Shown here: one piece after another, positions 22,282 through 63,663 of the stretch | Numbering within the stretch: position 1 is the first letter of the stretch | Layout of the letters: each line of letters starts with the position of its first letter | Source: Adineta ricciae | Lineage: Eukaryota; Rotifera; Eurotatoria; Adinetida; Adinetidae | NCBI GenBank assembly: GCA_905250025.1 | Contig: CAJNOJ010000176.1 | Span: 1-64,000, forward strand | Direction: 5' to 3' | DNA: 64,000 nt | Position numbers and translations under genes: made by a program | The notes under the pieces: generated by a model | The model's database searches: none | Told to the model about the DNA's origin: nothing | Seen by the model: the letters and a program-made list of their open reading frames with translations, nothing else

Positions 22282-23715
22282 ATGCGAGTGTTGACAATTT
22301 CCTTAATGATTATTTCACTAGTCAATACGGCACCATCGCCACCAAGTACTAATGGAACAGGTATGTACAAGGAGAAGGAACAATGATAAGTGTATTGAAT
22401 CAATGGTTTAGGTGCTGGTCTAGTTGCGAATGTCAAAGTTAGCGACGAGCCGACATGTAAAATGGATGATGGGCGAAGTGAGTAGATGACATTGTTCAAA
22501 TAATAATTCTTCACCATTTCGATTTCGTAGTTGAAATTCCTCTCAACGGAAAAATTCGTTTGGGTACCAATCCTTGCAAAGGTAAAGATTTTCTTCATTT
22601 GTTTTTCAAAGCAACTTTGAATCATCATTCCAGTCTGTACTTGTACAATAACTGGGTTTCAATGCGAAGATCAATGTGAGACTATCCCAGCATCAACATC
22701 CATTGGTACTCCTGGAGGTAAGCGAAGACAAATCCTATTTTTCTTTAATTACCAGTTGATTAGAAGGCGCACCAGCGAGTTCTTCTTCAGTAGCACCTGA
22801 CCAAATAATCATTTCTCCATCTCCTTCGCCTTCTCCTATACCAAACACGAATACAAATGTCTCGACGAGTTCAACTCCTACGACACCATTGAGTGGAAAT
22901 ACGGAAGATGATTTAACGTCGATTATTGCAGGTGGCCCATGCTCACGCTTGGCAGCAAACGCTCTAGCAGCAGCACGCGAATACGCCTTCGTTGACTGCA
23001 GCGAAGCTTATTTAGCTGGCAAGCGTACAAATGGCATCTATGAAATTTGGTAAGAGCAAACAAACGAAATTCATTGGACGCTTTTTCTCTATCTCTCAAA
23101 AGGCCTCGAACAAGTCCAAAACCGTTTCGAGTATACTGCGACATGGAGACAGATGGCGGCGGATGGACAGTCATTCAACGCCGTGATGGTTACAGCCAAC
23201 AATCGAATTTTTTCGTTTCGTGGTTATCGTACAAACGTGGCTTTGGCGATTTAACTCGAGACTTTTGGCTTGGAAATGAAAAAATTCATGCATTGACGAG
23301 CCAAGATGAATATCGTCTTTACATAAATTTAGAAGATTTCAATGATCAATCTCGTTTTGTTATTTATGAATGGTTTTTCATAACAAATGAACAAACAAAA
23401 TATACATTAAATTTAGGTCGTTATATGCCGTCGTCAACGGGTGGAGATTCTTTATATTACAATCGTGGAATGCGGTTCACTACACGTGATCAAGATAATG
23501 ATCAATCAATGTCCGGTCAATGTGCTGAAAATTATAAAAGTGGCTGGTGGCATGCTGGATGCACATTAGCCAATCTGAATGGACTTTACTTACGTGGAAA
23601 TGATTCGACAGCAACAGGAATCTTTTGGAATAATTGGTTAGGTGCAAAATATTCACTGAAATCATGCGCAATTAAAGTTCGACCGACAAGTTTCAACAGC
23701 GAAATGCTCTCGTAA
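22282..23715 (+). CDS. Secreted fibrinogen-related protein, complete copy
   Basis: Six exons: 22282-22360, 22412-22477, 22531-22581, 22634-22717, 22764-23049 and 23103-23715; 1179 nt, 392 aa. A signal peptide (MRVLTISLMIISLVNT) is followed by a short Cys module like a von Willebrand C domain (IRLGTNPCKVCTCTITGFQC), a Pro/Ser/Thr linker, and a C-terminal fibrinogen domain. The domain shows YLAGKRTNGIYEIWP, DGGGWTVIQRRDG, the calcium-site motif RDQDNDQ, and CAENYKSGWWHAGC with NLNGLYL. Fibrinogen-domain lectins bind acetylated sugars and act in innate recognition or adhesion in many invertebrates; that role is inferred. Exons 3-6 lie in the duplicated block and recur at 42757-43941, whereas exons 1-2 occur only here. 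Confidence 0.93.
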
Positions 23716-23789
23716 AAGAACCGAAACCGATTTTTCCCATTTGTTTGTTTGAGGTTTTGTATATTGTTGCATATTATTCTTCGAATGAC

Positions 23790-23795
23790 AATAAA
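23790..23795 (+). terminator. Polyadenylation signal AATAAA of fibrinogen-related gene (left copy)
   Basis: Canonical hexamer 75 nt after the stop; conserved in the right copy at 44016-44021. Confidence 0.6.
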
Positions 23796-24261
23796 GAGAA
23801 ATACAATTGCGAGAATTATAGTTTGAAAAGATAATCAGTACAACATATTCGACTACCGTTTTCATAGAACTCTTGGTAGGTTCCGGGAGTTAAAATGAAA
23901 CAAAAGTTTTTAAATTAAACAAGAATCGTTCAAAAATTGACCTTAGGTTTATTTGTTATCACGTAAAAAAGTATGATCAACGCGATCTATTATTTATGTC
24001 TAATCAAAATCCGTCATTTACAGCCGTTGAGCATATATAAAGCCAAGTCGTATCGAGATAGAGGAATATCGATTAGTGTTCGAATCAATCATACGATAAT
24101 TGAGCATTTTGTAAACTCCATCTGATTGATTCATATGCAGTTTGATCTCTTTGACTTGTTAAATTTCCTGTATGTCGATCAGTAACTGTTGCCGTTACGC
24201 AACAGATTTTCTTTTAATATTTCTTTGTAAAATAAACCAACAATACCAATAATCAATGTGA

Positions 24262-24290
24262 AGCTAACACGATGAAGCGGCGTGTTAGCT
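24262..24290. repeat. Perfect inverted repeat (10-bp stem, 9-nt loop)
   Basis: AGCTAACACG is followed after nine bases by its exact reverse complement CGTGTTAGCT. The right copy keeps only the right arm. Confidence 0.8.
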
Positions 24291-24638
24291 GAAAACTTTT
24301 TCGCGAAATAAGTCCCGTTCACCAAGATGAACGTGTGAAAAGTCAATCGGACTACGATGTGTTTTAACTTAGCCTATAGACTTCATGTCTTCATATTAAT
24401 GTTCCTTGTTTTTCTGCATACAGAACTTGAAGATCGATTCCCGTAGTAAAACGACGTCGCGCTACTCGCGACTCCAATTGGTTAATTTCCTAACTGATGA
24501 TGACTCATCTCATCGTTGTGGCGCTCGCTTGCTAGAAAAACGAATATTTTCATTTGATCGATAAATATATATATATATAGAAATATCTGTGTATATTTCT
24601 CCGGTGATTTAATACACCGTTGATTAGACAGTTTGAAA

Positions 24639-27600
24639 ATGGTATTCGAAAATCTCGTTGTGTACCTACTGGACAAATATCTGGGAGATTACATTGAAAA
24701 TCTAGATACAAAGAAACTTAAAATTGATTTATGGAGCGGTAAAAATAGAACCACAATCGATTTTCCATCGAATACATTTGGTATTTTTAGGAAATGTGGT
24801 CCTCGAAAATCTTTATCTAAAATCTAATGCACTAGTATGTAAATTTCTTTCCAAATCTCATGAATTAACTCGATTTTTAATAGGCCGATCTGAATCTGCC
24901 AGTGACTATATCAATTGGGTACTTACGTATGTTAATGTGATGAATTTTGTGATGAAAAAAAAAAGAGTTTCGCTTTAGAAAAATTAACATTACAAGTTCC
25001 ATGGAAGAATTTATATACACATCCAACAAAAGCAACGATTGATGGATTGTTTTTACTAGTTGTTCCGAAGACAGGTTTGTAGATAACTGTGGTGTTGGGA
25101 CTGTTATGATTTGGAAGCTTTTCAGAGGTGGAATATGATGCGAAACGCGATGAAAGAGAACAACACGAAGCGAAAATGAAAGAAGTTCGTAAGGTCGAAG
25201 AGCTTCGAAAAGAAAAGGAAGCTGAAAGTAAGCAAAGATTAGTTCTGTACGAATTGATACGCATCAATTTTGATTTAGAAAATGCCAAGGAGACCGATAA
25301 AAATAACGATACATTTGTCGAGAGAATGCAACTTCAAGTTATTCGAAATTTAGAATTATCTATTCGAAATATTCATATCGTCTATGAAGATAAAACAACC
25401 AAACCAAATCATCCATTTGCATTTGGAATTACTCTCAACTACATTTCACTTCATGTAATCCTGATTAAAAAGATTCAAATTCTCGATCAATTCTGTTTTA
25501 TTTCTCATAGACAACAACACCGGACTGGGAACCCACAATACTCAAGGAAGATACACCATTGATTCACAAGGTAAATGCTACTAAAGACTGAATTTTGTAT
25601 TCAAATGTTGTGTTTTAGCTGGGTGAATTAAGTGCCTTGTCGATTTATTGGAATACAAATGTGAAATCGCGTTCTGACTTGCCACGACAAGAGGCGATTG
25701 TATGTAAACTATTTGATTATCTCTTTGTATTTATTTTTTCGTTTAGAATAATCTACGCGAAAGAATCGCAAGTGACAATCAGTTAGTTCCATCTGATATT
25801 GCTTACAGTAAATTGTTCTTGCGTGTTTTTGGCTTCGTATAACGTTCATTTTTAGTTCTTCGCCCATTGAACGTCAAAGCAAGACTTATCTTAACAATGA
25901 AACCGCGTCAGGAAGATTTCAAACGGCCCATGTTTGATATCAAAGTCGATCTGGACGAAATTAGTCTGAACATGAATCGCGATCAGGTAGAATTTCTTTA
26001 GAAGATCATGGAAATCATTGAATTTTTGTAGTATTCCGATATACTTGATCTACTGGAATTGCAAGATTATCTGAGCATTCAGTCGAAATATATAAAATAT
26101 CATAGAAAGCAGGAACGCGAAGAGAAACCAAGCGTGAAAAGGTACGAATGCCTGATGTTTTCCAATGATTCACCGCGATGTACATATTTTCAGATGGAAA
26201 TTTGCGTATGAAGCAATTGTAAATGAAGAAGTTCGGCCAAGATTTGAATGTTACAAATGGGAAAACATCAAAGCACATCTAGACCGCTGCCGGGAGTATC
26301 GCACGATTCATTTACAAGAACTAACTGGAAAATTAACCAATGAGCAAAAGCAGCGCGCAGAAGTAAATGAAAACTGAGTTGAAATTCAGCGACCCGTGAA
26401 TTCTTCTCGTAGGAACTGGAAAAGAAACTTGATGTGTTTAATTTAACATACATTCGTCGGAGTGCGGAAATCGAAGCGAGAAAGAAGAAAGAACAGGAAC
26501 CGAAAACATGGTGGGGAAGTGTATCGAATTGGTGGGGTGGAAATAAACCTCAAGATGATCCAGGTGAGATCTTTGGAGTTTCAATAAGTTTTCAACTTCT
26601 CTTTCGTCAATTTAGAATTGGACTTAGAAAAAGTCATGTCACCAGAAGAGAAAAACAAATTATTCGAAGCGATTGGTTATGCTGGAGAAGATACATCCAC
26701 ATCAACATATCCTGAAGAAGTTTGTTCATTTGATTTCTCCTGTAAACACGACTACTTTCTCATGTTTCTTTCAGTACGTTGATATCGATTTGGCTATTCG
26801 ATTAAAGATGCTCGACGTTAGCATTTGGTCGAAAATTCAAGAAAACGATGCTCAGTATGATGATCTTCATGAAAATTCTCTCTCTACGAGTAACCCCTGC
26901 TTCTAGATTTCGAGTTATTGCTCGTGGTGTGATACCAGATACTAGTCTAATGTTTCGTCGTCGACCAGCAACTGACGCAATCGCGTATGTGATGGTTCAT
27001 TGCTGATACTTCTAACTTGTTTTCGATTTAGTGTATCGGTAGACTTAGGGTCGTTTCAAGTGTTCGGTATTTCGACAAATATAAGTCAATCTGAATTATT
27101 GAACGAGAATCGACCTGTTCTTGTCCGCCCATCAGGATTATCAACATCTGATCAGCACAAGTTCTTACAAGTCGAATTCGAGACAAATCCATTAGACAAG
27201 AAATCCGATTACCGCGTGAAAGTCGTCTCGCAATCATTAGAAATCAAATACAATGCGGTAAGCATTTTCATTGTTATCAGCAATTTGATTGTGATTTTTT
27301 GATTCCTTCAGCCAACGATTAATAAATTAGCCGAATGTTTCGAACCAGATAGTTCGCGAAATCTACAAGGGTAACAATAATGGAATGTAAACACCTTCAT
27401 AAAGAATTTGAATCTGATTTAGTGTTAAACAAGTTGCATATTCAACTTATACTGATGTTAAACATCGATCGTTCATATTAATGAAACACAATATCGAAAA
27501 AATCAAAGTTTTGGATATTTATATCGATATTCAGTCGTCATATTTTCTTCTACCAGAAAATGGAGTTTACCAAGAGTGAGAAACGAAATGATTTGCGACG

Positions 27601-30600
27601 AAAAATATCTTTGCTTCGTTTGGATTTAGTGGTGTTGCAGCTATTTGTATGGATTTGGGTCATCTAACATTACAACGAGGAACGGACCAAGTTACTGATG
27701 GTCAGAATCTTCACCAACCAAAAGTAAACGTAATTTTCTGATTGTCTCGAATATATTCACTTCGATTTTTGTTTGTAAACAGGATATTGAAGGTCTTCGT
27801 GAATTGTCGTATACTCAATTCAAATTAAAACTTACTGATGTTCAACTAATCTATGCACATCGCAGTAAGTGACAATCTTGTGTGCAAATTAATTCGATCG
27901 AGATCTTCTTTTAGATGAAAGCTGGGAAAATGCACGTAAAGACAAGAACACTCGTTTACATTTGATCAAACCAATGGAACTCGAAATGGATGTAGACAAA
28001 TGCATCTACAGTGATGATGCGGTTTTACCTGCGTAAGCAGTTTCCGTTTCAAACTATAAATTACTTTTCAATTTTTTTCCATATTAGATGGAAAATGGCT
28101 GGAAACATTCCAGGTGTTGAATTACGTTTATCCGATAAACGTCTCTTTCACATTATCAACCATATACAAACGATTCCTTTCCCGGAATCGAAACATCCCG
28201 TCAATGAAATTCCAGCATTAGAAGCTGAAGTTTGTTTTACATTCAATCCGTGAAGTAATTAAAGAATTTCGTCTTGTTTTAGTCAACAACAGCACAATCT
28301 TTACTGAGTAATCCTGAGCAGACACTTGAAACAGTTGAAGGAATGACGCCAGTAAAGAAAAATTTAGAAAAAGCAGAAGCTGATGAAAATAGCGACGAAG
28401 AAGTTGTCAAAAAGCCATTATCAGAAAGAAAAAGTAATTCCGAAGGACAATTGACCCAATTGGAAGCAACATTTACACTTGATAAAGTAAGATTTTCTCT
28501 CAACCAAACTTTCGCTCATATTTTCTTTCATTGTTCTAAAGATTGTTCTACATATTGATGAAGCGTTGAACACCACCAACGAAAACGACGAAGGAGAACC
28601 ATTTCTTCATCTCACTCTCGATTCTATCATTGCCAAAACAAAAATTAAAACATTCGATATGGAATTTAACGCATCTTTGGCTGATTTAGTCGTCTATCAC
28701 GAGCAGTTCATCGGTAAAGATAATCAACACTTACGCTTACTCTCTGCACAATTGAACCAAGACGAAAACGATCCCAAAGATAAAAAATTAGTCAGCTTAA
28801 ACTTTCGTCATACATCTCCGGAGAATCCATTATTTTCCTCGGCAATGTACAACGGAATCGAGAATCATGCCCATGTGCATCTGACTAAACTAGTTGTCAC
28901 ATTACAACTGGAAGCATTGTTATCAATATTAAGATTTCAAGATGCTTTATTGAAAAAGCTACCAAAAGATCTACCGGAAATCGAAATGAAGAAGAAAACT
29001 GAAGAAGAAGAATCAAAGAAGGCACAGCAAACATTGAAAGTACCGGAAGATAATCGAACTTTAGGCAGATCACTTTCGACTTCAGGAAAAGTTGTGAAAA
29101 AGAATGGTAAGAGATTGTACGAGATATACAGATTTCAGAGCAACCAACGTATTTAGATGTACCAGTAACACCCACATTGAAAATTGAAGCTGACTTGGAA
29201 GAATTTCGAGTGATAATTGCATCAAAAATGACTCAACTGTTCGATATACAAGTTCAAGGTTTGATTGCTTCATTAACTCAATGCTTTTTTTCACTGTATT
29301 CTTATGCAGGTGTCAAAGCTGATGTGTCTCAAGCACCGGAAAAGATGTTAATCAATTTGATTCTCTCTGATCTACGTGTTTTCGACCCTTACGAAGGTGC
29401 TCGATTCCGAAAAGTAAGACTTCGTGGACATCTTTCATGTAATCATACATAAATTGCTTTTCTCGAAGATTATCTCCCAACAAGGCACTGACAAAGATTT
29501 ACTTCGTGTTGACTTATGTTTATTCAATTATCCGGAAGGTTACACAAAACCGTTAGATGTCGTCGACTGTCAAGTGAAAGTAGACTTTGCCAAAGCAAAT
29601 CTGATTTTTCTCTTCAAACATATCGATGCGATTCTGGTACGATTTTTTCTTCACAAATTTCCCTCGAAAATTTCATTCTCGTTGTTTTGCCTAGACTTTC
29701 CTCGATTCTTTGAATATAACGAAAGCTGCATTAGATTTGGCATCGACTCAAGCAGATGCTGCTTATGAACAAGTACAAAAACTACAAGAACAAGCTTTTA
29801 AAGTTCATTTGGACATCACATTCAATGCTCCGAACATAATCATTCCAACAAATTCATATTCAGACGAAGCACTGCTGTTTGATTTGGGTAAATTAACAAT
29901 GAAAACGCGTTTTTTCGATGATCCGAAACGATCACTTATTGAACAACAAAATATTCGACTGGAAAACGTGTTGGCAAGTCGAGTAAAACTTAATCGAGAG
30001 AATACTATTCTCGGAGAGATTACTTTACTCGAATGTGCGGAATTGAATGCACTAATCAACCGGTTACTTTACCCAGAAAAAATCCGAACGGAACCCGGAG
30101 TTACGATCAAAGCTGAATGGGAATATATTCACGTAAGGAAAGTTTTCTGTGTTTTGAAGAACTGAAATATTTCGCCTTTTTTTCATGTAGTTTCGATTAG
30201 CCAAAGGTGATTATTCATGTGTGATGAAAGTTTTAATGGAAAACTTTACGGAAAATATTCGAGATCAAATAGCGGAAAGTGCTCAATTGGAACAGTATCA
30301 TTACCGACAAGAAGAACAGGAAAAAGAGGAAGACGCATTACGAAATGCTGTGATTAAGAGACAACAGGGTTTGACTGAAATTTCATTGTATGTATCGAAC
30401 TTATTCTTTTTTGTATTTTCTAGACGCACACGGAGATGAAGTGTTGCAAACAGTGAAAATTCGAGCAGAAATTAAGAAAATGGCTTTGACGCTTTACTTG
30501 GGTGAAGCAAATTTCGTTAGTGGAATTGTGTATACGGAGATCAAAGTTGTATTATTGTGTGTTTAGACTGTTCGTCGCGCTCCACGTGATGAAAATCTAA

Positions 30601-33600
30601 AATTGGCTAATGTTCAAATCGAATTACTCGAAGCATTATTTCGTCAGCAAACAGATGCAAGTTACAAAGCAATGGTTCGCGTGAAGAACTTTCTTCTTGA
30701 TGATCTCCGTGAAACCAATCGATCAACCAGTGTCACACGCATGATGGATCGGCATTTTACTGTCGATCCCAATGCACATATGCTTATTGCTTCATTCGAA
30801 TTCAAACCAAAATCACCAACAAATCCATTAGCACTTCGACAACGTAACTAGTACTTCTCTTATCATTTTCCATTCTCTTCGAATGTTTGTAGTGAGCGCA
30901 CAACTTGAAAGTCTTTATATTTGTATCAGTTTGGATTATCTGATGACGCTACAAGATTTCTTTATTTCTGGTTTACCTACTGGTGGTAATGAAGCAAGAT
31001 CTCGTGCAACAACGACGACATCCGAAGACAATGATGCGAAACCAGACAACGATAAAAATAGATTAACTGTTGATCAGCGAGCAGCTCGGCCATCAATTGC
31101 ATTGCCAAGAACTCCGACACCGTCGAAATGTAAGTTCCTCCAACTCATTTGCATGTTCACCTGAGCCGTTCTGTTTTTGTTTGAATAGCTACGCCGCCGT
31201 CATTCCCATCAACCCCATCAAATGCTGACACAGAAGTCGAAACACGTATTGATGTCATTGTCAAGCATCCTGAAGTGATCCTACTTGAAGATCAACATAA
31301 CTCTAATTCGAATTGTCTCGTACTTGATGTATGCTTAACAACGTGGAGTCCGACCAGTACTAAAGCTCGCTTTTCTTGTTTAGGTTGCATTACAAATGCG
31401 TATGATCAGTGTTGGCGATGATACGAAATTATACCTTTGGTTAAAAGATTTAACGGTCTACAGCTCGAACTTTACCGAATTAAGAGATTCGAAGGATTCG
31501 GGCTCAAAGATCAAATATCGCGTAAATAAGAAAAATCAATTAATTCTCTCAATTGTAATTTCGTTTTCTCATTCAGATTTTACAACCTGCCAAAGCCGAT
31601 GTAATCATGATCATGGACCGAGAACAACAGAAAATTGATGTACGAATCTCTGATATTATTGTTAGCATTGCACCGGCTGCAGTTAAAACATTAATTGCTG
31701 TCACAAGTTCATTGGGAACACTGCAGGTAAATAAATATCTTGACTAATTGATCGATTCATTCAATCGATTTTAGACAACTGTTCTCGAAGAAAAAGAAAA
31801 AGTGAATTCCAAATCTTTGTTCAGTCCTAAACCATTTAAAGATGCTGGCTTTTGGTTCACGAAAGGTATTTCTATTCGAATTGACAGAAGAAGTGACTTA
31901 CATGTTATTGAAATAGATTTCGAAGAGAAAGAAGGACTATTAGAAACAACAGATATATTAGAAACAGTCACAGGGACACCATCCATACAAAAAGCAGTCA
32001 AAGAAGAAGAGAACAAATTGATCGAGAAAGAAGAAAAAGCCGAAACTCAAACTCTTCAAATTCAACAGGTAAATAAATCGTTTTCTCCATCTGATTAATT
32101 AATAATTTATTTTAGTTAATTCTAACACTGGAAACCATCGAATTGAAACTTGAAGTTGGTCTTGGTTCAATAACCAAATCCGTCGTTGCCATGTGTTTAT
32201 CAAATTTAACAGCTGATGTTAAAAACTGGGGAACTGATGTATAACTCGCGAACTTCATTTCCACTTTATATTTCTGTTTACACTTTTAGTTGAGTCTTTC
32301 AGCGACTGTCAACGTCGAAGCCGCATTATTCAACGAACGTATGCTTTCGTGGGAACCTTTAATTGAACCAACAATTGATTCAAATGGTTCCATCCTTTCA
32401 CCATGGTGTCTCATTTGTTCGATTGTACCGGTAAGTAATTTTTTCGCGAAAGATGCGACGCTTTGTCTCCTGATAATTTGCAGATACTTAACGAAGAAAT
32501 GAGAAAGGTAAACACGATTGATACTCCTTTGTTTGGCGATAAGCGCATGTCTAAGCCTTACAGTTGCGACTTGAGTGATAAGAATTTCGAATTCTGATAA
32601 GTTCGAAAGTATCTCTCTATTTAAGATATTAGCACCAACGGATCGACGTGAATCTATTGTGTCGAATGCATCCGAGCGAAAAGAAGAACATCCATCAGCG
32701 AATTCGAAACAGATTATTTTCATTCGTGCTGAACAGCTACTGAATATAACATTAACAAAGACAGGACTCGATTTAGCTCAACGCTTATCAGCTTTATTCG
32801 ATGATGTGTATAATAAACGATTACCGTTTACCGAGGATGACAATCAACCAATGCTGTCATTGTATAATGCAACAGGAAAAGATTTGTTAATTGATGGTTT
32901 GGATGGACTCGAGGTAAGTTTGACATGTGGGCAACAATTTCATCGCTTGGAATTGTTTTCAGTTTGATACAAAGACGTCAGTTATATCATTGGATCTCAA
33001 AGCTAATGATTCGGTTCCATTAGTTGTACCAAATGATCGTCAATCCGCTGCGCGACTTTCAGTTATCGAAGAACAAGATTTTAAACGCCGTCAAGAATTT
33101 TCTGTTCAAGTAAATATAAATAGTCATTTGAAAATACTCATTTCACGCATCAATTTTAGATTGGAAATATTACGAAAACTGTCAGTATCAATCGAACGTG
33201 GAAACGCGTATATGAGTTAGGCCCATCAGCCAACCCACATTGGCCGGTTCAAATACTTTGCGATACTCAAGTACAAAATGATCGTCGGCGTGTTATTCTC
33301 AGTTCAATCGTCAAAATTTATAACAATACTACAATGCCATTGGTGATTCTTGATAGTGATTCGATTGAAACTGACGTTCATCATCGATTGGCAACAGTTG
33401 GTGTGAATGATGAGTATTATGCTCCGATTGATATTATTTATCGACACGCGAGTTCACCGATTTTCATTTCGGTTGAAGAGTGAGATTATTGCAATGTTCT
33501 ATTGAAGAAAACCGAGAATTTCTTTGTAGAAACGATAGTAATGACAAATTTTACGATTTTATTTCATTCGATTGGGAAAAGGAATTTCTATCGGAAAGAA

Positions 33601-38643: not shown

Positions 38644-39052
38644 AACAGTGCCTTTTCATTTAAACCAGCCTTTTCTGTTGTATTGTGTATATGAAGCCGC
38701 TCTATAGTCTCTCAAAGCGTGTAATCCAGCGTTGTGAATGAGCTAAACATTTAATCGGTGATAGAATCACATTCTGTCTTCTTCTGATTTTCAATTTTTG
38801 TTAGTGAACTATATTCAAGCATTTATTTCTCATTTTTGCCTTATCAAAATGTTTGTTTACGCTGATTTAGATCTGCGAAGGCTGGAGTCATTTTTTCTTT
38901 ATTCATTTGAAAAACAAGAAAGATATTTTACTTAACCGAATAGAAAATAAAAATCAGTTTTGCTATTGCCAAACAGTAATGGCTGATGTGATGTGTAAAT
39001 CATAACCTTACAGAGATTTCGACGTTAAACAATCGTTAGAGAAACACACAAG
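38644..39052. other. Convergent spacer, VPS13 / F-box gene (left copy)
   Basis: 409 bp between two stop codons, AT-rich, presumably two 3' UTRs; conserved at 59006-59415. Confidence 0.5.
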
Positions 39053-42357: not shown

Positions 42358-42704
42358 CTATTAAATCAAAAGAAAGATTTTATTAGACTCACTAAATTTC
42401 TAATCACCTTATTCTAACAGGAAACCGACTGTAAGTTGCCTTTGTTACTTGATGTTCTCAAATGCGTGCAACGAAAGACTTATGCTTTTCTCTATCATTG
42501 ACTTTACAAAAGAATACATCTAAATCACCGTAGATGGTTTACATCTTCAATTAAACTGTTACATTTTAAAGATCAAACTCAAATCAATCTGTTTTCGAAA
42601 AACAAGGATTTCCCAAGACAAAATATCGATGAAAATTGACCTAGTGAACTATGATATAACAACGACAAGAAACTCTTTTCACGATACAATAGGCTGAATC
42701 TAAT
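42358..42704 (-). other. Truncated intron 1 of the left F-box gene
   Basis: 347 bp matching 62721-63067 of the right copy, where it lies inside the 434-nt intron between the F-box exon and exon 2. No coding signal. Confidence 0.7.
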
Positions 42705-42705: not shown

Positions 42706-42756
42706 GAGTAGATGACATTGTTCAAATAATAATTCTTCACCATTTCGATTTCGTAG

Positions 42757-43941: not shown

Positions 43942-44987
43942 AAGAACCAAAACCGATTTTTCCCATTTATTTGTTTGAGGTTTTGTATATTGTTGCATAT
44001 TATTCTTCGAATGACAATAAAGAGAAATACAATTGCGAACGATTTTTAATCACTATGCTAACAACTGTTTTTCTTTTTTAAACCTTTCGCAGATAACTTT
44101 TTCAATTAATACGGAAACGTTACCGCTGACACTGTTGATTCTAGATAAGATGAACTCCAATAGCGAGAATTACAGTTTGAAAAGATAATCAGTACAACAT
44201 ATTCGAGATATGAGAAGTCGAACTCTTGAATGGTTCTGCGAGCTAAGATGAAAGAAAAGTTTTTAAATCAAACAAGAAATGTTCAAAAATTGACCTTAGG
44301 TTTCTTTGTTTTCACGGAAAAAGTATGATCAACGTGAGCTATTATCGATGTTTAATCCAAATCCGTCAGCTATAGTTATTGAGTATATACAGTCGAGTCG
44401 TATCGAGATAGAGGAATATCGATTAGTGTTTGAATCAATCATACGATCATTTAAGCATTTTGTAAACGACATCTGATTGATTTATATGGGATTTGATCTT
44501 TTCGACTTGTTAAATTCTCTGTATGTCAATCAGTAACTGTTGCCATTAAACAACAGATTTAACACAAAAGTATTCGACAAAGATTTTCTTTTGATATTTC
44601 TTTACAAAATAAACCAACGATGTCAATAATCAGTGTGTTAGCTGAAAACTTTTTCGCTAGATAAGTCCCGTCCACCAAGATGAACGTGTAAATAGTCAAT
44701 CGGACTACGATGTGTTTTAACTTAGCTGATGGATTTCATATCTTCATATTGATGTTTCTTGTTTTGTTGCAAACAGAACTTGAAGATCGATTCCCGTAGT
44801 AAAACGACGTCGCGCTACCCGCGATTCCAATTGGTTAATTTCCTAACTGACGATGACTCATCTAGTCGTTGTGGCGCTCGCTCGCTAGAAAAACGAATAT
44901 TTTCATTTGATCGATAAATATATAGATAGAAATATCTGTGTAACTTTCTCCGGTGATTTAATACACCGTTGATTAGACGGTTTGGAA
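43942..44987. other. Intergenic region, fibrinogen gene to VPS13 (right copy)
   Basis: 1046 bp, longer than its left counterpart mainly because of about 128 bp at 44039-44166 and 26 bp at 44561-44586 that are absent on the left. PolyA signal at 44016-44021. Confidence 0.6.
44016..44021 (+). terminator. Polyadenylation signal AATAAA of fibrinogen-related gene (right copy)
   Basis: Same hexamer and spacing from the stop codon as in the left copy. Confidence 0.6.
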
Positions 44988-50900: not shown

Positions 50901-53900
50901 ATTGTGTGTTTAGACTGTTCGTCGCGCTCCACGCGATGAAAATTTGAAATTGGCCAATGTTCAAATCGAATTACTCGAAGCATTATTTCGTCAGCAAACA
51001 GATGCGAGCTACAAAGCAATGGTTCGCGTGAAGAACTTTCTTCTTGATGATCTTCGTGAAACCAATCGATCAACTAGTGTCACACGCATGATGGATCGGC
51101 ATTTTACTGTCGATCCCAATGCACATATGCTTGTTGCTTCATTCGAATTCAAACCAAAATCACCAAAAAATCCATTAGCACTTCGACAACGTAACTAGTA
51201 CTTCTCTTGTCATTTTCCACTCTCTTCGAATGTTTTTAGTGAGCGCACAACTTGAAAGTCTTTATATTTGTATCAGTTTGGATTATCTGATGACACTTCA
51301 AGATTTCTTTATTTCTGGTTTACCTACTGGCGGTAATGAAGCACGATCTCGTGCAACAACGACGACATCCGAAGACAATGCTGCGAAACCAGACAACGAT
51401 AAAAATAGATTAACTGTTGACCAGCGAGCAGCTCGACCGTCCATTGCATTGCCAAGAACTCCGACACCGTCGAAATGTAAATTCCTCAAAGTCATTTGTA
51501 TGTTCAGCTGAATCATTCTTTTTTGTTTGAATAGCTACGCCGCCGTCATTTCCATCAACCCCATCGAATGCTGATACAGAAGTCGAAACACGTATTGATG
51601 TCATTGTTAAGCATCCTGAAGTGATTCTACTTGAAGATCAACATAACTCTAATTCGAATTGTCTCGTACTTGACGTATGCTTAACAACATGGAGTCCAAC
51701 CAATACTAAAAGTCGTTTTTCTTGTTTAGGTTGCATTACAAATGCGTATGATCAGTGTTGGCGATGATACGAAATTATACCTTTGGTTAAAAGATTTAAC
51801 GGTCTACAGTTCGAACTTTGCCGAATTAAAAGATTCGAAGGATTCGGGCTCAAAGATTAAATATCGCGTAGATAAGAAATCAATTAATTCTCTCAATTGT
51901 AATTTGATTTTCTCATTCAGATTTTACAACCTGCGAAAGCTGATGTAATCATGATCATGGACCGAGAACAACAGAAAATTGATGTACGAATCTCTGATAT
52001 TATTGTTAGCATTGCACCAGCTGCAGTTAAAACATTAATTGCTGTTACAAGTTCATTGGGAACACTGCAGGTAAATAAATATCTTGACTAATTTGTCGAT
52101 TCATTCAATCGATTTTAGACAACTGTCCTCGAAGAAAAAGAAAAAGTGAATTCCAAGTCTTTGTTCAATCCTAAACCATTTAAAGATGCTGGCTTTTGGT
52201 TCACGAAAGGTATTTCTATTTGAATTGACAGAAAAAGTGACTTACATGTTATTGAAATAGATTTCGAAGAGAACGAAGGGCTATTAGAAACAGCAGACAT
52301 ATTAGAAACAGTCACAGGGACACCATCCATACAAAAAGCAGTCAAAGAAGAAGAGAACAAATTAATTGAGAAAGAAGAAAAAGCCGAAACTCAAACTCTT
52401 CAAATTCAACAGGTAAACAAATCGTTTGCTCCATCAGATTAATTAATAATTTATTTTAGTTAATTCTAACACTGGAAACTATTGAATTAAAACTTGAAGT
52501 TGGTCTTGGTTCAATAACCAAATCTGTCGTTGCCATGTGTTTATCAAATTTAACAGCCGATGTTAAAAATTGGGGAACTGATGTATAACTTGCGAACTTC
52601 ATTTCCACGTTATACTTCTGTTTATACTTTTAGTTGAGTCTTTCCGCGACTGTCAACGTCGAAGCCGCATTATTCAACGAACGTATGCTTGCGTGGGAAC
52701 CTTTAATTGAACCAACAATTGATTCCAATGGTTCTATTCTTTCACCGTGGTGTATTATTTGTTCGATTGTACCAGTAAGTAATTTCTCAGCGAAAGATGC
52801 GAAGCTTTGTCTCGTGATAATTTGCAGATACTAAATGAAGAAATGAGAAAGGTAAACACGATTGATACTCCTTTGTTTGGTGATAAACGCATGTCTAAGC
52901 CTAACAGTTGCGACTTGAGTGATAAGAATGTCGAATTCTGATAAATTTGAAAATATTTCTCTATTTAAGACATTAGCACCAATGGATCGACGTGAATCTA
53001 TTGTATCAAGTGCATCCGAGCGAAAAGAAGAACATCCATCAGCGAATTCAAAACAGATTATTTTCATTCGTGCTGAACAACTATTGAATATAACATTAAC
53101 AAAGACAGGACTTGATTTAGTTCAACGCTTATCAGCTTTATTCAATGATGTGTATAATAAACGATTACCGTTTACCGAAGATGACAATCAACCAATGCTG
53201 TCATTGTATAATGCAACAGGAAAAGATTTGTTGATTGATAGTTTGGATGGACTCGAGGTAAGTTTGATATGTGGCCAACAATTTCATCGCTTGGAAGTGT
53301 TTTCAGTTTGATAAAAAGACGTCAGTTATATCGCTGAATCTCAAATCTAATGATTCAGTTCCATTGGTTGTACCAAGTGATCGTCAATCAGCTGCGCGAC
53401 TTTCAGTTATCGAAGAACAAGATTTTAAACGACGTCAAGAATTTTCTGTTAAAGTAAATATAAATATTCATCTAAAAGTACTCATTTCACACATCAATTT
53501 CAGATTGGAAATATTACGAAAACTGTTAGTATCAATCGAACATGGAAACGCGTGTATGAGTTAGGCCCATCAGCCAATCCACATTGGCCGGTTCAAATAC
53601 TTTGCGATACTCAAGTACAAAATGATCGTCGGCGTGTTATTCTCAGTTCAATCGTCAAAATTTATAACAATACTACAATGCCATTGGTGATTCTTGATAG
53701 CGATTCGATTGAAACTGATGTTCATCATCGATTAGCAACAGTTGGTGTGAATGATGAGTATTATGCTCCGATTGATATTATTTATCGACATGCGAGTTCA
53801 CCGATTTTCATTTCGGTTGAAGAGTGAGATTATTGAAATGTTCTATTGAAGAAAATCGAGAATTTCTTTGTAGAAACGATAATAACGACAAATTTTATGA

Positions 53901-56900
53901 TTTTATTTCATTCGATTGGGAAAAGGAATTTCTATCTGAAAGAAAACTGAAGTTGAAAAATGGCAAAAACGCTCATTTTGTGGTGAGATTGGCTAATTCA
54001 ACTATAAATTCTTCCTTATCAATATCATTCATTTAGATCTTTAAAGAAGTAACCGAAGCCTACTCGGAAAACACCGATCAGCTCGATCGTCAAGCATTTA
54101 GTTTACACATCCACCCTGCACTTCATCTAACCAATCTTTTACCAGTTGAAATCCAATGTTCAATCGATGTAAGTCTAACATCTCATACTTTTCCCCTAAC
54201 ACAACCGATTTCAGATTGAATCTTCAGCAAAAAATCTTTATCCGGTCTTTGACCGGATTGTTCGTTATGCGACCAATGTTCGTGTACTTTTGCTAGTGTA
54301 GATTGTCTTAGTTTTGCATAAAATGTTCACTGTTCAAATTTCCTATAGCTTGTCGACGTGATTTTGCTTTTGACGTTGATAAATTCTCGAAATTCATTTG
54401 AATACTTACATTTAAGGATGTCGAACAAATCGATTTGAAGCCAAGTGAGCTGAATCTGATCACATCGGGAAATAAACAATCAATATTAACTTTCACGGTA
54501 AACAATTTGCTGTCTGTTTGGATGAAAACTAATGCCAATGTTTTAGATTCCTTCGTATAATAATATTAAATGGATATCGGAGACAGTTGATTTGAAAGTT
54601 GAAGGCAAAGGTGATCATAATGAACATTTAGTCATCTTTCATAATTCAACAGCGAATTCGCAACAAACTTTGGTAAGAAATAAGGAAGAACATATTTCAA
54701 TGAAAGTTCTGGTTGATTTTATTAGAAAATGGTTTTACGTATCGATACATATCATGAATCGTATCGTTTATTATTGTATTCCCCATTTTGGATTCTCAAT
54801 CGTACAGAATTGTCTTTGGAATTTCAAGTAAGAAACTATTACTATTGATTTTGCACATCCATCTTGCTCTTCTTCGTCTTGTAGATCGAAAATAATCGTA
54901 CTTTTCTCGAAGCATCTCACACCCCGTTTTTAGTCTGCCCAGATAAGTTCGATAGCGATGCGAACCGAAAAGTAAAACCGATTTCATCGAATATAGTGAA
55001 TATGTATGCTGATTATCGATCATAGGGTCAACTTCGACTTTATAGTGCTGAACAAGGCGATAATACGACGAATTGGTCGGAGAAATTCTCATTAGATGTG
55101 ATTAAAAGTACGGGTATGGCATCATGTAAAGTTCCAAATGATCGAGTGTATATGGTAAGTGTCGAATGCATATGGAAGACGTTTTGTTTTTGAGAGAATT
55201 TTAGGTGTGCGTGGATATTGTGACTTGTTCATTTGGTTTAACAAAAATTGTCACCTTGTCACCATCGGTGGTTATAATTAACAATTCATCGGTAGATTTG
55301 CGGCATTTTTCATGAAAATCAATTCGTTCTTTTGTTTCTAGATTGAAGTGGAAGTTGTCGAAACAGTGTCCGACAAAGAACAGGATAAATGGGGACCAGT
55401 TAACTCTGAACAAGTAACGAAAATCTCTCTTCTGCTGATTTTTATCTGAGAGTTCGAATATGCTTTAGATAATTCCATTTTGGCCACACAATATCGAAGC
55501 TGGTGTCATGCGTGTTCGTTATACACATAATCGCGTAACGTCGAGTCCATTTATGATGAATCAAAAACATCGGACTTTGTTACGTATGAATGATGAAGAG
55601 CGTCCAGCAATTTATGTTGAAGTCACAGCTACAGATTTCGATGGTATTCGAGTGATTTTTGGTGACTATAAGATCGGCGATGCTCCACTCCTCGTGGTTA
55701 ATTGTTTGAGAAATGATCCAGTATCGTTTTGTCAAGTGGATGATGTGTAAGTCAAATGAAGTGCTAATCGATTTTATAACCGAAATTTCGCTTTAGACGA
55801 GCACAAGTCTTACCACCACAAAATTATGTTTATTACACATGGTCGGATCCTTTGAAACCAAGACAATTAGTTGTTTCATGTGGTTCAAAAACAACACAAA
55901 TGGAATTGAATGTAAGAGACATACGAAATATTTTTTTGTAGAAATCAAGTAATGATAGTTCAGTGGTTCTGGAGCTTGACAGACATTTCGAAAGTACTCT
56001 GTTCGAATCTCAATTCGCATGCTCACTCTGTGTTCCGTTTATTCAATCGAATGGAATCCAATTTTCTCGCATGCTAAAGAAAGTGACCCACAGAAGAACG
56101 GATTGCCCGAAAGAATGATGTTCCATTCCTTGAATATCGATCTTTTCAATCCATTTTCTACACATTTCCATCGATTTCTTATTCGTTTTTCTCATGTCAA
56201 TGATGTTTTAGCCTCAATGTGGCTTTCTCGGCAAAGACGGTGATCATAATGTTAGTTATACAACGTTTATCGATGGTGTTCAAACTGTTCTACTCTTTTC
56301 GGATGATACAAAAGTCATTGAAGCAGCTTCTGGCGTAAGTTTTCCTCTTAAATACTCCTGATAAATTATAATCTTGGGAAATCTATACAGATGCCATCAT
56401 TAGCTGAATCGATGGGTCAACGTGTTCAGATCGGCATTCATAATATAGGTCTTTCAATTGTCAATGATATCACTCGAGAGGAATTGCTTTATGTAAGTCT
56501 AAGTAAATCCAAAGTTGTGTGGACAGAAACGAAAAAATCTCGCGTTCGACCACTGTCACATGAAGTCAACGCACATCTCGAAGAACTTTATAAAACTCAC
56601 GTTGAACACCATGAAGCGAATCCAGATGACAAACAACTCCTCAGAAAAACATATCATATGGATCAATTTCGGGTATATTTTTTCATCTTTATCTCGAATC
56701 TCATCGTTTTTGCCTTCGATACATAGGAAATCGTATTTCATGGTGATACAGCTGAATTAATCAGTTCCAAAGGTCAGCGAAAAGTAGCCAAACGACAAGC
56801 ATTAGATGGTCTTTGGATTGAATATGCTTGGTCGGTCACGAGTGCTGCTTTACATATTCGTATAAATCGTGTTCAAATTGATAATCAACTTGATTATACA

Positions 56901-59005
56901 ATGTTTCCTGTTGTTCTTTATCCGGTGATTTCGAAAGCAACAGGAACTGATCATGCGGAAAAACCTTTCATCGAGCTAAGTGTTTTGGAATCGAAAACAA
57001 GTCGATCCACAGTTATGCAATTCAAATACTTCAAATTACTCGTTCAAGAATTTGCCGTGAAAATTGATCAAGGTTTAATTGTCGCAATTCTAGCATTTTT
57101 ACGAGCAGAAAAGGTTTGTACTTCGAGTTAAGATTCGTTATTAATCTGTACGAGACTTTCATATAGAGTGCCGCAGCACCAACCATTAACATGGACACAG
57201 ATTTAGAACAAATTCAAAAACCACTCGATGCAATCATCAAAGCACAAACAGAGAGTCCGTCTGGTGATACAGAAATGTATTTTGATAACATCCATCTGTC
57301 ACCATTAAAAGTACTGTTAATAGCATCGTTAACATGAACTATTGTGTTTATTTTCATTTCGGTTTAGATTCATGTTAGTTTTTCAATGCACGGATCAAAA
57401 GCAAGTGAAGAACTTTTAGCAGAATATCCATTAGTGGCATTTTTATTACAAACATTGAATGTTGCTGAAGTACAAGATGTCATTTTACGGTGAGATCCTT
57501 TCTTGAAAATTCGAAGGTAGTTCTCACTAAGATGTGACTTGCATTTAGTTTGGGATATTACGAACGAACACAGGATCGTTTTACAGTAACAAAATTAACT
57601 AACGAAGTTACATCTCATTATCAAAATCAATTTATGAAACAACTCCATGTTCTTGTTCTTGGTCTCGATGTATTGGGCAATCCATTCGGTGTTATTCGAG
57701 GTTTAGCTGAAGGTGTTGAGTCATTCTTCTATGAACCTTACAAAGTAAAATACATTGACCATGTTGATGAAAATATCGAACTTTTGTTTCGTATAGGGCG
57801 CAATTGAAGGTCCCATGGAATTCGCGGAAGGTGTGGCAACAGGTGTTCGAACATTAGTTGGTTCGGCTGTAGGTGGTGCTGCGGGTGCATTTTCGAAAAT
57901 TACTGGTGTTCTTGGCAAAGGTTTAGCTACATTAACATTCGATGAAGACTATAAAATATCTCGAATCAGACGCAAAGAACCAGCCACACGCGCTACAACT
58001 GACATTGCTGTTGGTGGAAAAAATGTGGTTATGGTAAGTTCATACGCTAACGATCAGAAATGATGATATTTCTCTCCTCTTATCTGTAAAGGGTTTTGTC
58101 GATGGTGTTACAGGTGTTGTAACTAAACCAGTTTCGGGTGCAAAAGAAGGTGGTGCATCTGGATTTGTCAAAGGTTTAGGCAAAGGTTTTCTTGGTCTTG
58201 TCACACGACCAACTGGTGGAATCGTCGACTTTGCCAGTACTTCATTAGATATTATCAAACGGTAAAATATCGATAACATCGATAATATATTGTGATAGAG
58301 TTGACTTTGTTTAGAACTGCACAACAAGAAGAAGTAGTTCGCCGTGTTCGTTATCCACGCCATGTGGGTCGTGATGGACTCGTTCGACCATATATTTCAC
58401 ATGAAGCTATGGGATTCTATATTCTAAACGTAAAATAATCACTCTACCCGAATATTTCTCAGATTGATTACTCCTATGATTCAATTCTAGAGATTACACG
58501 ATGGAAAATATGCGAAAACTGATACTTATGTAGCGCATATAACTTGCTCGGAAAGTCCGCCATCCTGGTTGTTAGCTACATCAAAGTATAGTTGTTTCGA
58601 TTATTCCATATGCTGAGAAATTATTGAATGATGATTTTAGACGTTTATTATTTGTAACGGAAATTTCCTTTCTTGGTTTATATGAAGTTGATTGGCATAT
58701 TGAATATGAAGAATTAAAAGAAGAGCCTGTTGTGAAACCAAATTTGAATCAAATACAAATTCTTACTAAAGTATATCAGTAGCAGTGAAAATCAATTTGA
58801 TCTCATTCGAATCTCTTCTAGGAACCAAAGAAAACAGGAACACTAAAATCTACTCGCTCGTTTGGTAAAATGGTCAAATATCGGAACATATCCGAAGCCC
58901 GGGTAAACATAAAATTTTCTTTTTCTTCTCCTTTGATAATTATTCTTTGGATTTTAGTTCATCGTAGATAAAATAACCAATGCAATGCATACAGTTGGCC
59001 TATAA
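44988..59005 (+). CDS. Vps13: VPS13 bridge-like lipid-transfer protein, right copy
   Basis: Same exon chain as 24639-38643, from [20 protein letters not shown] to TNAMHTVGL. All domain landmarks are present: the Chorein_N start, the Trp-rich [11 protein letters not shown] (about 46860), the VAB region, the Gly-rich C-terminal helices (57.6-58.2 kb) and the PH-like end. The intron at 56673-56726 is a normal 54-nt GT-AG intron and the following exon reads [17 protein letters not shown], which matches what I expect of the family and suggests this copy keeps the ancestral structure. Apparent in-frame stops, such as the TGA at 52221, fall inside 51-54 nt introns (here 52210-52260). No inactivating change was found. 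It is probably the other allele of the left copy. Confidence 0.95.
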
Positions 59006-59415
59006 AAACAGTTCTTTTTCATTTAAACCAGCCTTTTCTGTTGTATTGTGTATATGAAGCCTTTCTATAGTATCTCGAAGCATGTAATCCAGCGTTGTGA
59101 ATGAGCTAAACATTTAATCGGTGATAGAATCACATTTTGTTTTCCTCTGTTTCTCAATTTTTGTTAGTCAACTATATTCAAGCATTTATTTCTCATTTTT
59201 ACATTATCAAAATGTTTGTTTATGCTGATTTAGATCTACGAAAGCTGGAGTCATTTTTTCTTTATTCATTTGAAAAACAAGAAAGATATTTTACTTAACC
59301 GAATAGAAAATAAAAATCAGTTTTGCTATTGCCAAACAGTAATGGCTGATGTGATGTGCAAACCATAACCTTACAAAGATTTCGACGTTAGACAATCGTT
59401 AGAGAAAAACACAAA
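59006..59415. other. Convergent spacer, VPS13 / F-box gene (right copy)
   Basis: 410 bp between stop codons; counterpart of 38644-39052 and highly similar to it. Confidence 0.5.
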
Positions 59416-62400
59416 TCAAAACCAAAGGCAAAATCTCGATGTTTTAACATAGACTCGACAACTTGGAAAACGCGTTTGAACCATTTGACGATAGGATTCC
59501 ACTTTCATATCCGAAATGACACCATATATATCGAGAAAAAGCAATTCTTTCAATTGATCATGCAGTTGACAAAGATTTTGTTCAAAAACAATCGTGTGTT
59601 CATCTAAATGATAAGAATTTTACGAAATCATCGGACTACCTCGATGAATTGATCTCAAAACCTACTAGCACATTCAGCGGTTTTCAAAAAATATCTCCAC
59701 TTGTGCATAAACATGGCATAGTTTCGTTGTTTTATATATTTTTGTCGCACTTAAAGAAAGAAATGAAAATAAGTTCAATATTAGAAATCCAAATATAGTT
59801 TTGTTTATTCGGACAAATAATAATCAAAGCTCATCTGTTTATGTCATTCGATACGCATTCGTCGAACACCAGCTGTACGAAATGGATGGTTTACAAAAGC
59901 CAAAAGGGAGTAACACACCTTAATTTAATGAAGAATTAGCATAATTAATGTAATCTTGTGAATTTAAAGCTGAGTCTCTGATACATTATCTTTAACTATA
60001 TGCTTTTTTCGATGCACAACAGTCAAGTAACATTGAAACTGTAGTTTTAGTTAACTAAATTAACCATGAAGACAAAACGGTCAGTTTAAATACGTTATGA
60101 CAAATAAATTTAAACTTTCATTGAAAATCTGAGCGTGAGTAAGACAGATTCAACCTCAGCTTTGTACATTGTATCTAGATCGATAAGTGTCATATTTTTT
60201 ATCACTAGGATAATGGTGCTACTCTATCTGTAAGTTGACTACGAACGAAATAGACCTAACAAGTCTAAAAATGATGAGAAAAAGACATCGAGAAGCACAA
60301 ATAGTTAAGGTTAATTAAATTGTTTCGATACATCTCACTAATTTTGATTCTATCTCATTAGAAATAAGTTGATTATTTATCGTATTTTGATAAAGATTAG
60401 CCAAAATGACAATTAAAAAATGTGATTCATTTCAAAATATACTTACGCGATGTCCATGGAAAATCATCAAGTCTCCAAAGCCGTAATATACGTAGATGCG
60501 GCATATAAGTACTAAGAACAGGTACAAGATTTGCTCCTAAACCAATCGATTCATTCGACCCATAATTACAGCTTGCGAGACCGAATTCAATACACCGAAC
60601 AGTGTTCAACGCATTCTTGCGCAATTTATCGGCAGCCTAAATAAAGACTACGTTGCTTTTTTCTATGAACTGACATGCAACTTAAATATTCAAGTGATAG
60701 AAAGTTCAACTTTATTGGTATTATTGATTAAATCAGTTCAATGTGCAAGATGACTTACATATTGAAATAAATATAATAGCCATTCAAATTTTGCAATAAA
60801 TAGAGATCTCAATTGATTTGGTATTGAAACAAGATGAGCCAGTATTGTCACATACGTTTTAATACTGTTTGATAATTGATGGCAGGGATCTAAAATTGAT
60901 GTTTGAATGTAATTATTTCTCAGGGAGTATCAATTGAACAATCTTATTCAAAACTTCATTGTTTTATCTTCAAGTACGAAGTAGTAGAAAAGGAGTGCAA
61001 ATGTTTTGTAGTGCATTGCTGATGTCTTTAGATGAAAATAATAGACATTTTTAACTGTAATGATTTGAGAAGAGATCGAATATTTCCGCATGGCAGTTTT
61101 GGAAAAAGAGATAAATTGTACATACGCATCATGAAAACATTGCAAAAACCAAATCGAAGTATTGTAACATTTCGAAGTTTAACATCTAAATTATTGATCG
61201 TTGTCTCAAATGCTGATAATAACGGTTGCAATTGTATGGGTTCTATACTAGTAGTAACTAAAACAAGGACAACAGTTGACGTCGCTTTCTTCAAATGAAT
61301 AACAATTTCATCTAAGATGAACATAAAACGACGGATTTTGCTTGTTTAGTCTAAGACCTCGAATTGCAACTTAAGACAATAGGACAGAGGCGAAACAGAT
61401 CGGTTTGTCCTATCAAACGAACAGATGCGGATTTCACTCATTAGTCTGATGGCTACAAATTACACAGACTGGATGCAAATATGGCATAGCCAGGAAAACA
61501 AATTACAGGAGGATCAATCCATTTTTTGTTCCCGGTGATTATGCCACTAGACTTAGTACAAAAGTAAATTACTCTTGTCCAGATGTTTTCAATGGATAAT
61601 TTAACTGATTTTCTTACCTGGACGAACTGAGATCGATGAAATATTTAAAGATGATTTACTAAATTGTTTCAAATCTCGGCAAAACGATTGATCCAAATCA
61701 AATCGAATGTTTTGAATATCTGAGCATTCGTATCTATTCTGTTCAACGCTAAATAAAATAGAAAAAGACTTTAGGAAACTTTTTAATGATGAAATCTCTT
61801 ACAGTGATTGTGCTAAAAACTGCGATTGATCGAGATTGGAAGAAAAAATATGTTGATAAGATCTCTTCTGATCATGAATAACTTGAAATTTGATATATTG
61901 ACCATTAAGGAACAAAAGATTGTTTGTAAATTCATCATTAATCCTTTCCATCTCAGTCGTTGAAGTTGCGAATGGTTGGCCAATATAAAGATAGAAATCT
62001 TTTAAATTAGATAATATCCCAGGTAGACAATATTGACGAATAAAATTCGTATCGATGGTATTAGATATGTTTGAGTGTGAATTTCTTAACCATCCTACTC
62101 GGTATTTTAAATAGATTCGAAGTTTGCTAATATGACGAAGATTATTCAGAAGCCATTTCAAGTGGTTGAGTTCAGTAGCATCATCTATCCCACTTTTCAA
62201 CATAAAATATTTTAATTTTGGCACCTAGTTTACAATGAAAACAAGTGTTTTATAATAGAGAAATTCATTTAAATTTGTATGTAAATAATATCGTTGAAAT
62301 CAACATAAGTAAATTCAAGATATGTTATCGTAGAATTTTGCTCCATTGGAAGAGCATACATATCCCTCATTCGTCTTACCTTGTAAATCCAACCTTCATC

Positions 62401-63663
62401 TGATGCTCTGAATGTTTCAACATCCAAACGACGTACTTCATCAAGCTGCAAATGTGTACAAACAACCGACAACTTTTCAAGATTAGGAACATGATGAATA
62501 AGATGTTCCAAGAAACACATATATTCAAGATGAATATGTAAACGGCATAAATTTACACATTGGAATTGATGTTGATTGTAGTCGAAACAATCAAAATGTC
62601 TCTTTAGGCATATATGTTCCCAATAAGATAAATTCTTCATATCAAGGTAAAGAGATTTCAGTTTGCATTGACTAGAAAATATTTGACGTAGAAGAACAGA
62701 CATTTCACACTTGGACTGTTCTATTAAATCAAAAGAAAGATTTTATTAGACTCACTAAATTTCTAATCAACTTATTCTAACAGGAAACCGACTGTAAGTT
62801 GCCTTTGTTACTTGATGTTCTCAAATGCGTGCAACGAAAGACTTACGCTTTTCTCTATCATTGACTTTACAAAAGAATACATCTAAATCACCGTAGATGG
62901 TTTACATCTTCAATTAAACTGTTACATTTTAAAGATCAAACTCAAATCAATCTGTTTTCGAAAAACAAGGATTTCCCAAGACAAAATATCGATGAAAATT
63001 GACCTAGTGAACTATGATATAACAACGACAAGAAACTCTTTTCACGATACAATAGGCTGAATCTAATGACAATATTTTCTAATGTATATTTCTATCGAAC
63101 TAACTTTATAATATGAATTGCATCTACGTATTGATTTAGATATTTTCATCTTACCTATGTCGTCGATAATTGGCGACTTTCCTCGTACATTATTAAGTAC
63201 ACGCACTGCGTCGTGATCAAATTTCAATGTGAGATGATTTAACTGATGTTGAATGAGCGAAGACAGGGTTTGCAGTAACGATGTCGATATTAAACATCGA
63301 TAAATAGAAAGCGATTTAAGATTCGGGAAAAATAGTTTGTTCATTGCAGTCGAGAAATAACAATTGATGACAAAAATCAAATGAAACTGACTTCCACCCA
63401 TCGAAATGAACAGATTCTATCATTGTGTAAAAAGACATTGATGAATCAAATAATAATGGTATTAATGTTGATGAAAATGTGGCATAGGAACAGTTTAAGT
63501 AATCGAAAGTGAATTTAATGACACGAGATGAAAACAACGTTCGAATTATACAATCGAATCTTCTGTTGATTTTGGATAATGACACTAAAATTTCATCCCA
63601 TGTTAAATACGAAAATATGCTGAGTAATATTTCATTTGGTAATTTCTCCAATGTGTTGACCAT
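59416..63663 (-). CDS. F-box/leucine-rich-repeat protein, right copy with all exons; one-base frameshift in exon 1
   Basis: Eight exons: 63155-63663, 62380-62720, 61803-62224, 61618-61748, 60759-60889, 60447-60636, 59666-59749 and 59416-59603. The start MVNTLEKLPNEILLSIFSYLTWDEIL is a typical F-box, which recruits Skp1/Cullin-1 ubiquitin ligases. LRR-like segments follow (FPNLKSLSIYRC, LKSLYLDMKNL, VPKLKYFMLKSG, MPHLRILRLWRLDDFP) and a conserved tail ends in VQTRFPSCRVYVKTSRFCLW. Exon lengths total 1996 nt, one more than a multiple of three. The surplus falls near 63328-63332, where five A (T on the coding strand) split the F-box frame from the LRR frame. With a correct count the protein would be about 664 aa. 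Such F-box/LRR genes form large families in bdelloids; the substrate is unknown. Confidence 0.78.

Follow-up and report, generated by a model that had tools for sequence, protein, structure and literature searches.

Two alleles of a 20-kb region are most likely mis-joined in tandem in an Adineta ricciae assembly, with a reciprocal false deletion on the sister scaffold

Results

Tandem block on C176

We analyzed the first 64,000 bases (the window) of contig CAJNOJ010000176.1 (C176) in the genome assembly of the rotifer Adineta ricciae (GCA_905250025.1), in which a block of 20 kb occurs twice, head to tail, with a single N at the join. The two copies are almost certainly alleles of one region that were placed end to end during assembly, leaving the sister scaffold, C122, without the unit. 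Comparison of the assembled sequences indicates that the tandem arrangement is most likely an assembly error, with no biology in it. An earlier reading made from the letters of the window (the sequence-only reading) had proposed that allelic contigs from two haplotypes were laid end to end, and this proposal is supported here above all by a hole on C122, and also by copy counts and by recurrence of the pattern. Positions without a prefix are those of the window (C176:1-64000), and genome searches covered 130,461,839 bases in 1033 contigs.

The GC-content of the window is 34.8%, and its sole non-ACGT base is the N at 42705. BLASTN of the window against itself (word size 20, E-value 1e-20) matched 22480-23812 with 42706-44038 at 96.2% identity and 23794-42704 with 44147-63067 at 94.8%. 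Both matches were colinear and on the same strand, and no further match longer than 100 bases was found within the window. In a global alignment, the left copy (L, 20,225 bases) and the right copy (R, 20,362 bases) were 95.4% identical end to end, with 927 mismatches in 20,166 aligned columns (4.60%; 671 transitions and 256 transversions) and 33 indels, the largest being 128 bases, in R. The match extends to the final base left of the N and to the first base right of it; its length of 20 kb at 95% identity excludes a chance origin. The boundaries 22480-42704 and 42706-63067, the colinearity, the sole N at the join and the truncation of both copies at that base were all confirmed as the sequence-only reading had given them. 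Its description of the divergence as small holds with one refinement, namely that divergence is uneven, ranging from 1.9 to 8.7% per 1,000 columns.

Near the join, divergence was about 2% over the last three full 1,000-column bins and 0.7% over the last 421 columns. Over the 3.4 kb that precede the join (39284-42704, and the corresponding part of R), it drops from about 5% to 2% and then to 0.7%. Either a gene conversion tract or a haplotype switch inside the contig could have produced this tail.

Complementary hole on C122

Both flanks of the unit are present on C122 as second alleles (92-98% identity), and the unit is missing exactly at an N of that scaffold. The segment C122:172013-173511 matches C176:20582-22062 at 94.5%, a single N follows directly after it at C122:173512, and C122:173513-175482 matches C176:63534-64499 and 68903-69991 at 93-96%. 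When the start of the right flank (63068-64000) was used as a query, its second place was C122:173513-173982, corresponding to the last 467 bases of the query.

A stretch of 4.4 kb beginning 500 bases beyond the window, C176:64500-68902, is present on C176 yet missing from the C122 allele. It holds an open reading frame (ORF) of 704 amino acids (65293-67404) without a Pfam match. Both a gene-bearing presence/absence difference between the alleles and a mobile insertion are possible.

Copy counts

The locus shows the pattern expected of a bdelloid genome, a degenerate tetraploid, with an allele on C122 at 92-98% and a colinear homoeolog on scaffold C45 at 63-83%. Copies were counted with short queries; 10-kb DNA queries missed even their self match and the C122 allele and hence were not used. 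All seven short C176 queries gave two alleles. Each of the four flank queries (15000-15900, 63068-64000, C176:100000-100900 and C176:147300-148200) had one partner at 92-98%, in every case on C122, and the last of them additionally matched a homoeolog at 72%. The three unit queries (30000-30900, 42000-42704 and, from a second block described below, C176:128000-128900) each matched C176 at two places and C122 nowhere, and two of the three also matched a homoeolog on C45 at 68-72%. The query 30000-30900, for example, found L itself, R at 95%, the C45 homoeolog at 68% and nothing more.

With the short queries, the 1033 contigs yielded no third unit copy; C122, which has both flank alleles, lacks the unit at its own N. 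Nor was there an excess of unit over flank copies across the haplotypes in these contigs (two of each). Had the unit been duplicated in tandem, its copies should outnumber those of the flanks; the equal counts therefore argue against a true tandem duplication.

Second instance on the same scaffolds

The paired pattern repeats farther downstream on C176, at an N-to-N distance of 91 kb. There, a block at 121055-134149 is followed by an N at 134150 and by a second copy at 134151-147248, with 4.8% mismatches. On C122, a single N at 226168 separates the allele of C176:120065-120546 from the allele of C176:147369-147700. All four junctions of the two cases are thus single Ns.

Other single Ns

A total of 269 kb, comprising C176:1-149000 and C45:170001-290000, was read for Ns and contained one run of ten Ns and five single ones. 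On at least one side, each of the five single Ns has a second copy at 93.5-97.5% identity, a sample that is not random because the C45 stretch was chosen for its matches to the window. The sequences on the two sides of the single N at C45:212195 overlap colinearly over 6-8 kb at about 94%, and one of the sides carries an element of the long terminal repeat (LTR) type. Two further single Ns, C45:241174 and 242622, bracket a 1,447-base piece, C45:241175-242621, which sits 23 kb from its allelic position. Being enclosed by two single Ns and 94% identical to C45:218201-219648, it is probably another misplaced allele piece. An ancient tandem duplication, considered for the second fibrinogen-type C45 match 23 kb off, was rejected, as that match falls in the N-bracketed piece.

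Exact runs at contig ends

At 12 contig ends with a partner, the mismatch-free run from the end was measured against the best partner. Run lengths of 121/129 or 213/221 bases were found at nine of the 12. Runs at contig starts were 121 bases at 42706, C45:241175 and C122:173513 and 129 bases at 134151; those at contig ends were 221 bases at 42704, C45:212194, C45:242621 and C122:173511 and 213 bases at 134149. The run at C45:241175 is 121 bases against C45:202060 but 42 against 218201, and the run at C45:212194 reaches 221 bases with the repeat upstream of it but 12 with 217655. As a background, 3.2% of positions in the L/R alignment start a run of at least 121 bases and 0.9% a run of at least 221. 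The lengths obey 121 + 221 = 129 + 213 = 342 = 2 × 121 + 100, a sum that suggests a filled 100-base pad. The contigs would be those of a de Bruijn graph with k = 121, stopping at shared vertices, and the 100-base pad between them would have been filled down to one N.

Features of the window

The coordinates of the features are collected in Table 1. The Pfam matches of the VPS13-like genes are to single exons and all fall below Pfam's curated cut-off. The F-box domain lies within 63319-63723 on the minus strand (PF12937, E-value 3.8e-7, above its cut-off). Since this is outside the repeated block, the left-copy F-box gene lacks its first part.

Table 1. Features of the window, C176:1-64000; contigs A to D are defined in the Discussion.
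Feature	Position	Strand	Evidence and remarks
Left flank, second allele on C122	1..22479	+	Matches on C122 to C176:13514-17398 (93.6%) and C176:20582-22062 (94.5%, ending at C122:173511)
Putative shared stretch X1, 759 bases	21842..22600		Contigs C and B would stop here; middle 417 bases inferred
Left copy L (20.2 kb at the end of contig A), probably one unit allele	22480..42704	+	Self-BLASTN, global alignment
Fibrinogen C-terminal domain ORF, left copy	23044..23715	+	PF00147, E-value 5.4e-63
VPS13-like gene, left copy	24628..38355	+	Extent from C45 homoeolog match, without gene model; PF12624, 3.3e-18; PF25033, 2.1e-10
F-box gene, left copy, cut by the join	41436..42704	-	F-box part absent
Single N, probable false join of contigs A and B	42705		221 bases before identical to 62847-63067; 121 bases after identical to 22480-22600
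Right copy R (20.4 kb at the start of contig B), probably the other unit allele	42706..63067	+	Self-BLASTN, global alignment
Fibrinogen C-terminal domain ORF, right copy	43270..43941	+	PF00147, E-value 7.4e-64
VPS13-like gene, right copy	44986..58881	+	Extent from C45 homoeolog match; PF12624, 1.9e-17; PF25033, 2.7e-10
F-box gene, right copy	61799..63723	-	F-box domain within 63319-63723; extent deduced from adjacent ORFs
Putative shared stretch X2, 808 bases	62847..63654		Contigs A and D would stop here; middle 466 bases inferred
Right flank (start)	63068..64000	+	Second allele from C122:173513, equivalent to C176:63534

Spurious extra VPS13, fibrinogen and F-box genes had been predicted from the window. 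A probably false tandem VPS13-like/fibrinogen pair stands, and it is half the story, as C122 also bears a probably spurious deletion. The F-box part of the prediction is refined here: the gene is present in both copies, but its domain is outside the block and the left copy is only partial.

A total of 4,119 codons, selected because they are conserved in the C45 homoeolog, gave a Ks of 0.128 and a Ka/Ks of 0.14 between L and R; this crude exon set takes in some intron sequence. Within this set fall 10 of the 33 L/R indels; it also holds a 27-base indel at 36377 and seven in-frame stops in R. Coding decay of one copy was considered and judged improbable for most exon-set indels, which sit in short GT...AG intron-like stretches (read by eye).

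The scaffolds C45 and C176 share a long colinear homoeologous region (C45:170797-289994 and C176:2638-137188, 63-83% DNA identity), which is useful for dating the old tetraploidy. Within it, C176:105415-110245 is inverted relative to the C45 homoeolog. C45:200573-212194 and 216738-218430 appear to be alleles, one with an LTR-type element and the other with a single repeat. The element has direct repeats of 939 bases (97.4% identity), about 10.7 kb apart, with a reverse transcriptase domain between them. The difference may represent a full element versus a solo repeat or, equally possible, an assembly shortcut. The ten-N run, C45:179739-179748, lies beside long G homopolymers and differs from the single-N joins; no second copy of its neighbours was found in the stretches compared. 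A pattern of four repeats of the telomere-type unit TGTGGG gave 38 matches and the reversed control pattern 44.

Discussion

Proposed route of the mis-join

The observed arrangement would follow if, in assembly, one diploid region came apart into allelic contigs that were then wrongly paired in scaffolding. Contig A (C176:1-42704) would comprise the left flank and the unit, and contig B (C176:42706 onward) the other unit allele and the right flank, while contigs C (C122 to 173511) and D (C122 from 173513) would hold the remaining allele of the left and of the right flank, respectively. The true molecules would be A-D and C-B, whereas the scaffolds would hold A-B, with the unit twice, and C-D, with the unit absent. 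The contigs probably end inside two short stretches identical between the alleles, X1 and X2. The end of contig C is identical over 221 bases to 21842-22062 and the start of contig B over 121 bases to 22480-22600; contig C ends 417 bases short of the start of B, and contig A 466 bases short of the start of D. X1 and X2 would be identical in both alleles over their full length, each having been assembled once, in A and in B. Either flank allele may belong with either unit allele, and phase may have switched in A at X1 or in B at X2.

The joins would have been padded and the pad filled by about 100 bases of read extension, leaving one N; gap filling would have extended the contigs by 100 + 0, or 92 + 8, bases. 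The contigs may have been ordered by start position on a reference, as is done by RaGOO, whose default pad is 100. As described for RaGOO, contigs are sorted by alignment start and then end, and concatenated with N padding (PMC6816165). With such sorting, alleles that overlap would come to stand one behind the other, and a piece contained in a longer contig would follow that contig, as on C45. In the source study, the alternative (maxhap) assemblies were made with a final k-mer size of 121, and RaGOO was applied to some samples (PMC7943196). The DNA sequenced for ARIC003, the A. ricciae sample, had undergone whole-genome amplification (PMC7943196).

Several observations weigh against mis-joined alleles. 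The case is built on assembled sequence, and the search covered all of the 135.6 Mb assembly except about 5 Mb, in which a third copy of the unit could hide. Three of the 12 contig ends are off-pattern, with runs of 11 (C45:212196), 50 (C122:226167) and 5 bases (C122:226169), and these include both ends of the second C122 hole. For the ends C45:241173 and C45:242623, no close partner was found in the data compared. The query C45:225000-225900, from the VPS13 homoeolog, found just itself and the C176 copies at 69-70%; a C45 homoeolog without an allele means that collapse or loss occurs, and a count of two is hence not universal. Having no close allele among the searched contigs, this homoeolog may have been collapsed, its allele may have been lost, or the allele may lie in the remaining scaffolds. 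The methods section of the source study, finally, is silent on the scaffolding of ARIC003 and on k = 121 for its reference assembly (PMC7943196).

Alternative explanations

The same artefact could be the work of a read-pair scaffolder, which on predicting a negative gap would have entered one n, and not of reference-guided ordering with fixed pads; we consider this unlikely but not negligible. Writing one n for a predicted overlap is a convention of the SSPACE/LINKS family. The procedures described for other samples of the source study include SSPACE (PMC7943196). However, C45:241175-242621 lies 23 kb away from its allelic place, a displacement that sorting by alignment start would give, and the sum 342 points to a filled 100-base pad.

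That the 20 kb were truly duplicated in tandem at this place, with copies now about 5% apart and an assembly gap at the unit boundary by chance, is hardly credible. The geometry of two units between flanks would, taken alone, be the same as for mis-joined alleles, and both copies keep a low Ka/Ks of 0.14. However, the C122 haplotype should then hold at least one further copy, and among the searched contigs none was found, a single-N hole being present instead. The same coincidence would be required at C176:134150, copies diverged by 5% would presumably need no gap at their boundary, and the contig ends fall in runs of 121 and 221 identical bases. A true tandem duplication should also read without a break from one unit into the next, but here the N at 42705 interrupts the junction.

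Real reciprocal unequal exchange between homologues, with both products kept in one asexual lineage, has next to no probability: C176 and C122 do show the expected reciprocal duplication and deletion, but single Ns occupy all four junctions of both cases, the stretches at the two unit ends share no match over 100 bases, and C122 also lacks the 417 and 466 bases past the unit ends, which points to contigs stopping in shared stretches and not to one exchange point. That such an exchange, duplicating on C176 and deleting on C122, took place twice within about 125 kb and was retained in a clonal rotifer lineage is extremely improbable.

Comparison with known cases and implications

The L/R divergence of 4.6% falls within the 2-8% found between C176 and C122 in the flanks and is near the published median of 4.55% between homologous, separately assembled A. 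ricciae copies (PMC5916493). The L/R Ks of 0.128 is inside the allelic class of A. vaga, for which the mean Ks is 0.2 or less (PMC7749112).

The error is of a known kind, false heterotype duplication, paired here with a false deletion. The marks described for this error include a gap between two copies on one scaffold (Genome Biol 2022, PMC9516828). Here, a gap separates the pair at 42705 and again at C176:134150, the copies diverge at the allelic level of 4.6%, and the unit and its flanks have two places each among the 1033 contigs. The likeness to the cases described in that paper (PMC9516828) lies in alleles appearing as neighbouring paralogues with a gap between them and a spurious gene gain; unlike them, the present case has a complementary false deletion, no search for precedents having been made.

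Two cases of allelic blocks in tandem have been reported for the 2018 A. ricciae assembly; the same paper notes that many breaks of collinearity span scaffold gaps and suspects scaffolding errors there (PMC5916493). Our case, which may or may not be one of the two, resembles them in having allelic blocks in tandem on one Adineta scaffold, and differs in that the error is traced to contig ends and a reciprocal partner. A later chromosome-level A. vaga assembly reportedly showed ordinary homologous pairs.

At face value, C176 would have a VPS13-like/fibrinogen tandem pair that is false, together with a broken F-box gene, and the same genes would be falsely missing from C122. As the deletion on C122 complements the duplication on C176, gene totals would be right though both scaffolds are wrong. 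Screening single Ns for the exact-run signature could be a simple, read-free way to look for such swaps in an assembly. Linkage of bdelloid alleles on one scaffold has been debated as an indication of ameiotic evolution (PMC5916493); a scaffolding route to such linkage, traced here together with its mirror deletion, would therefore be a practical warning.

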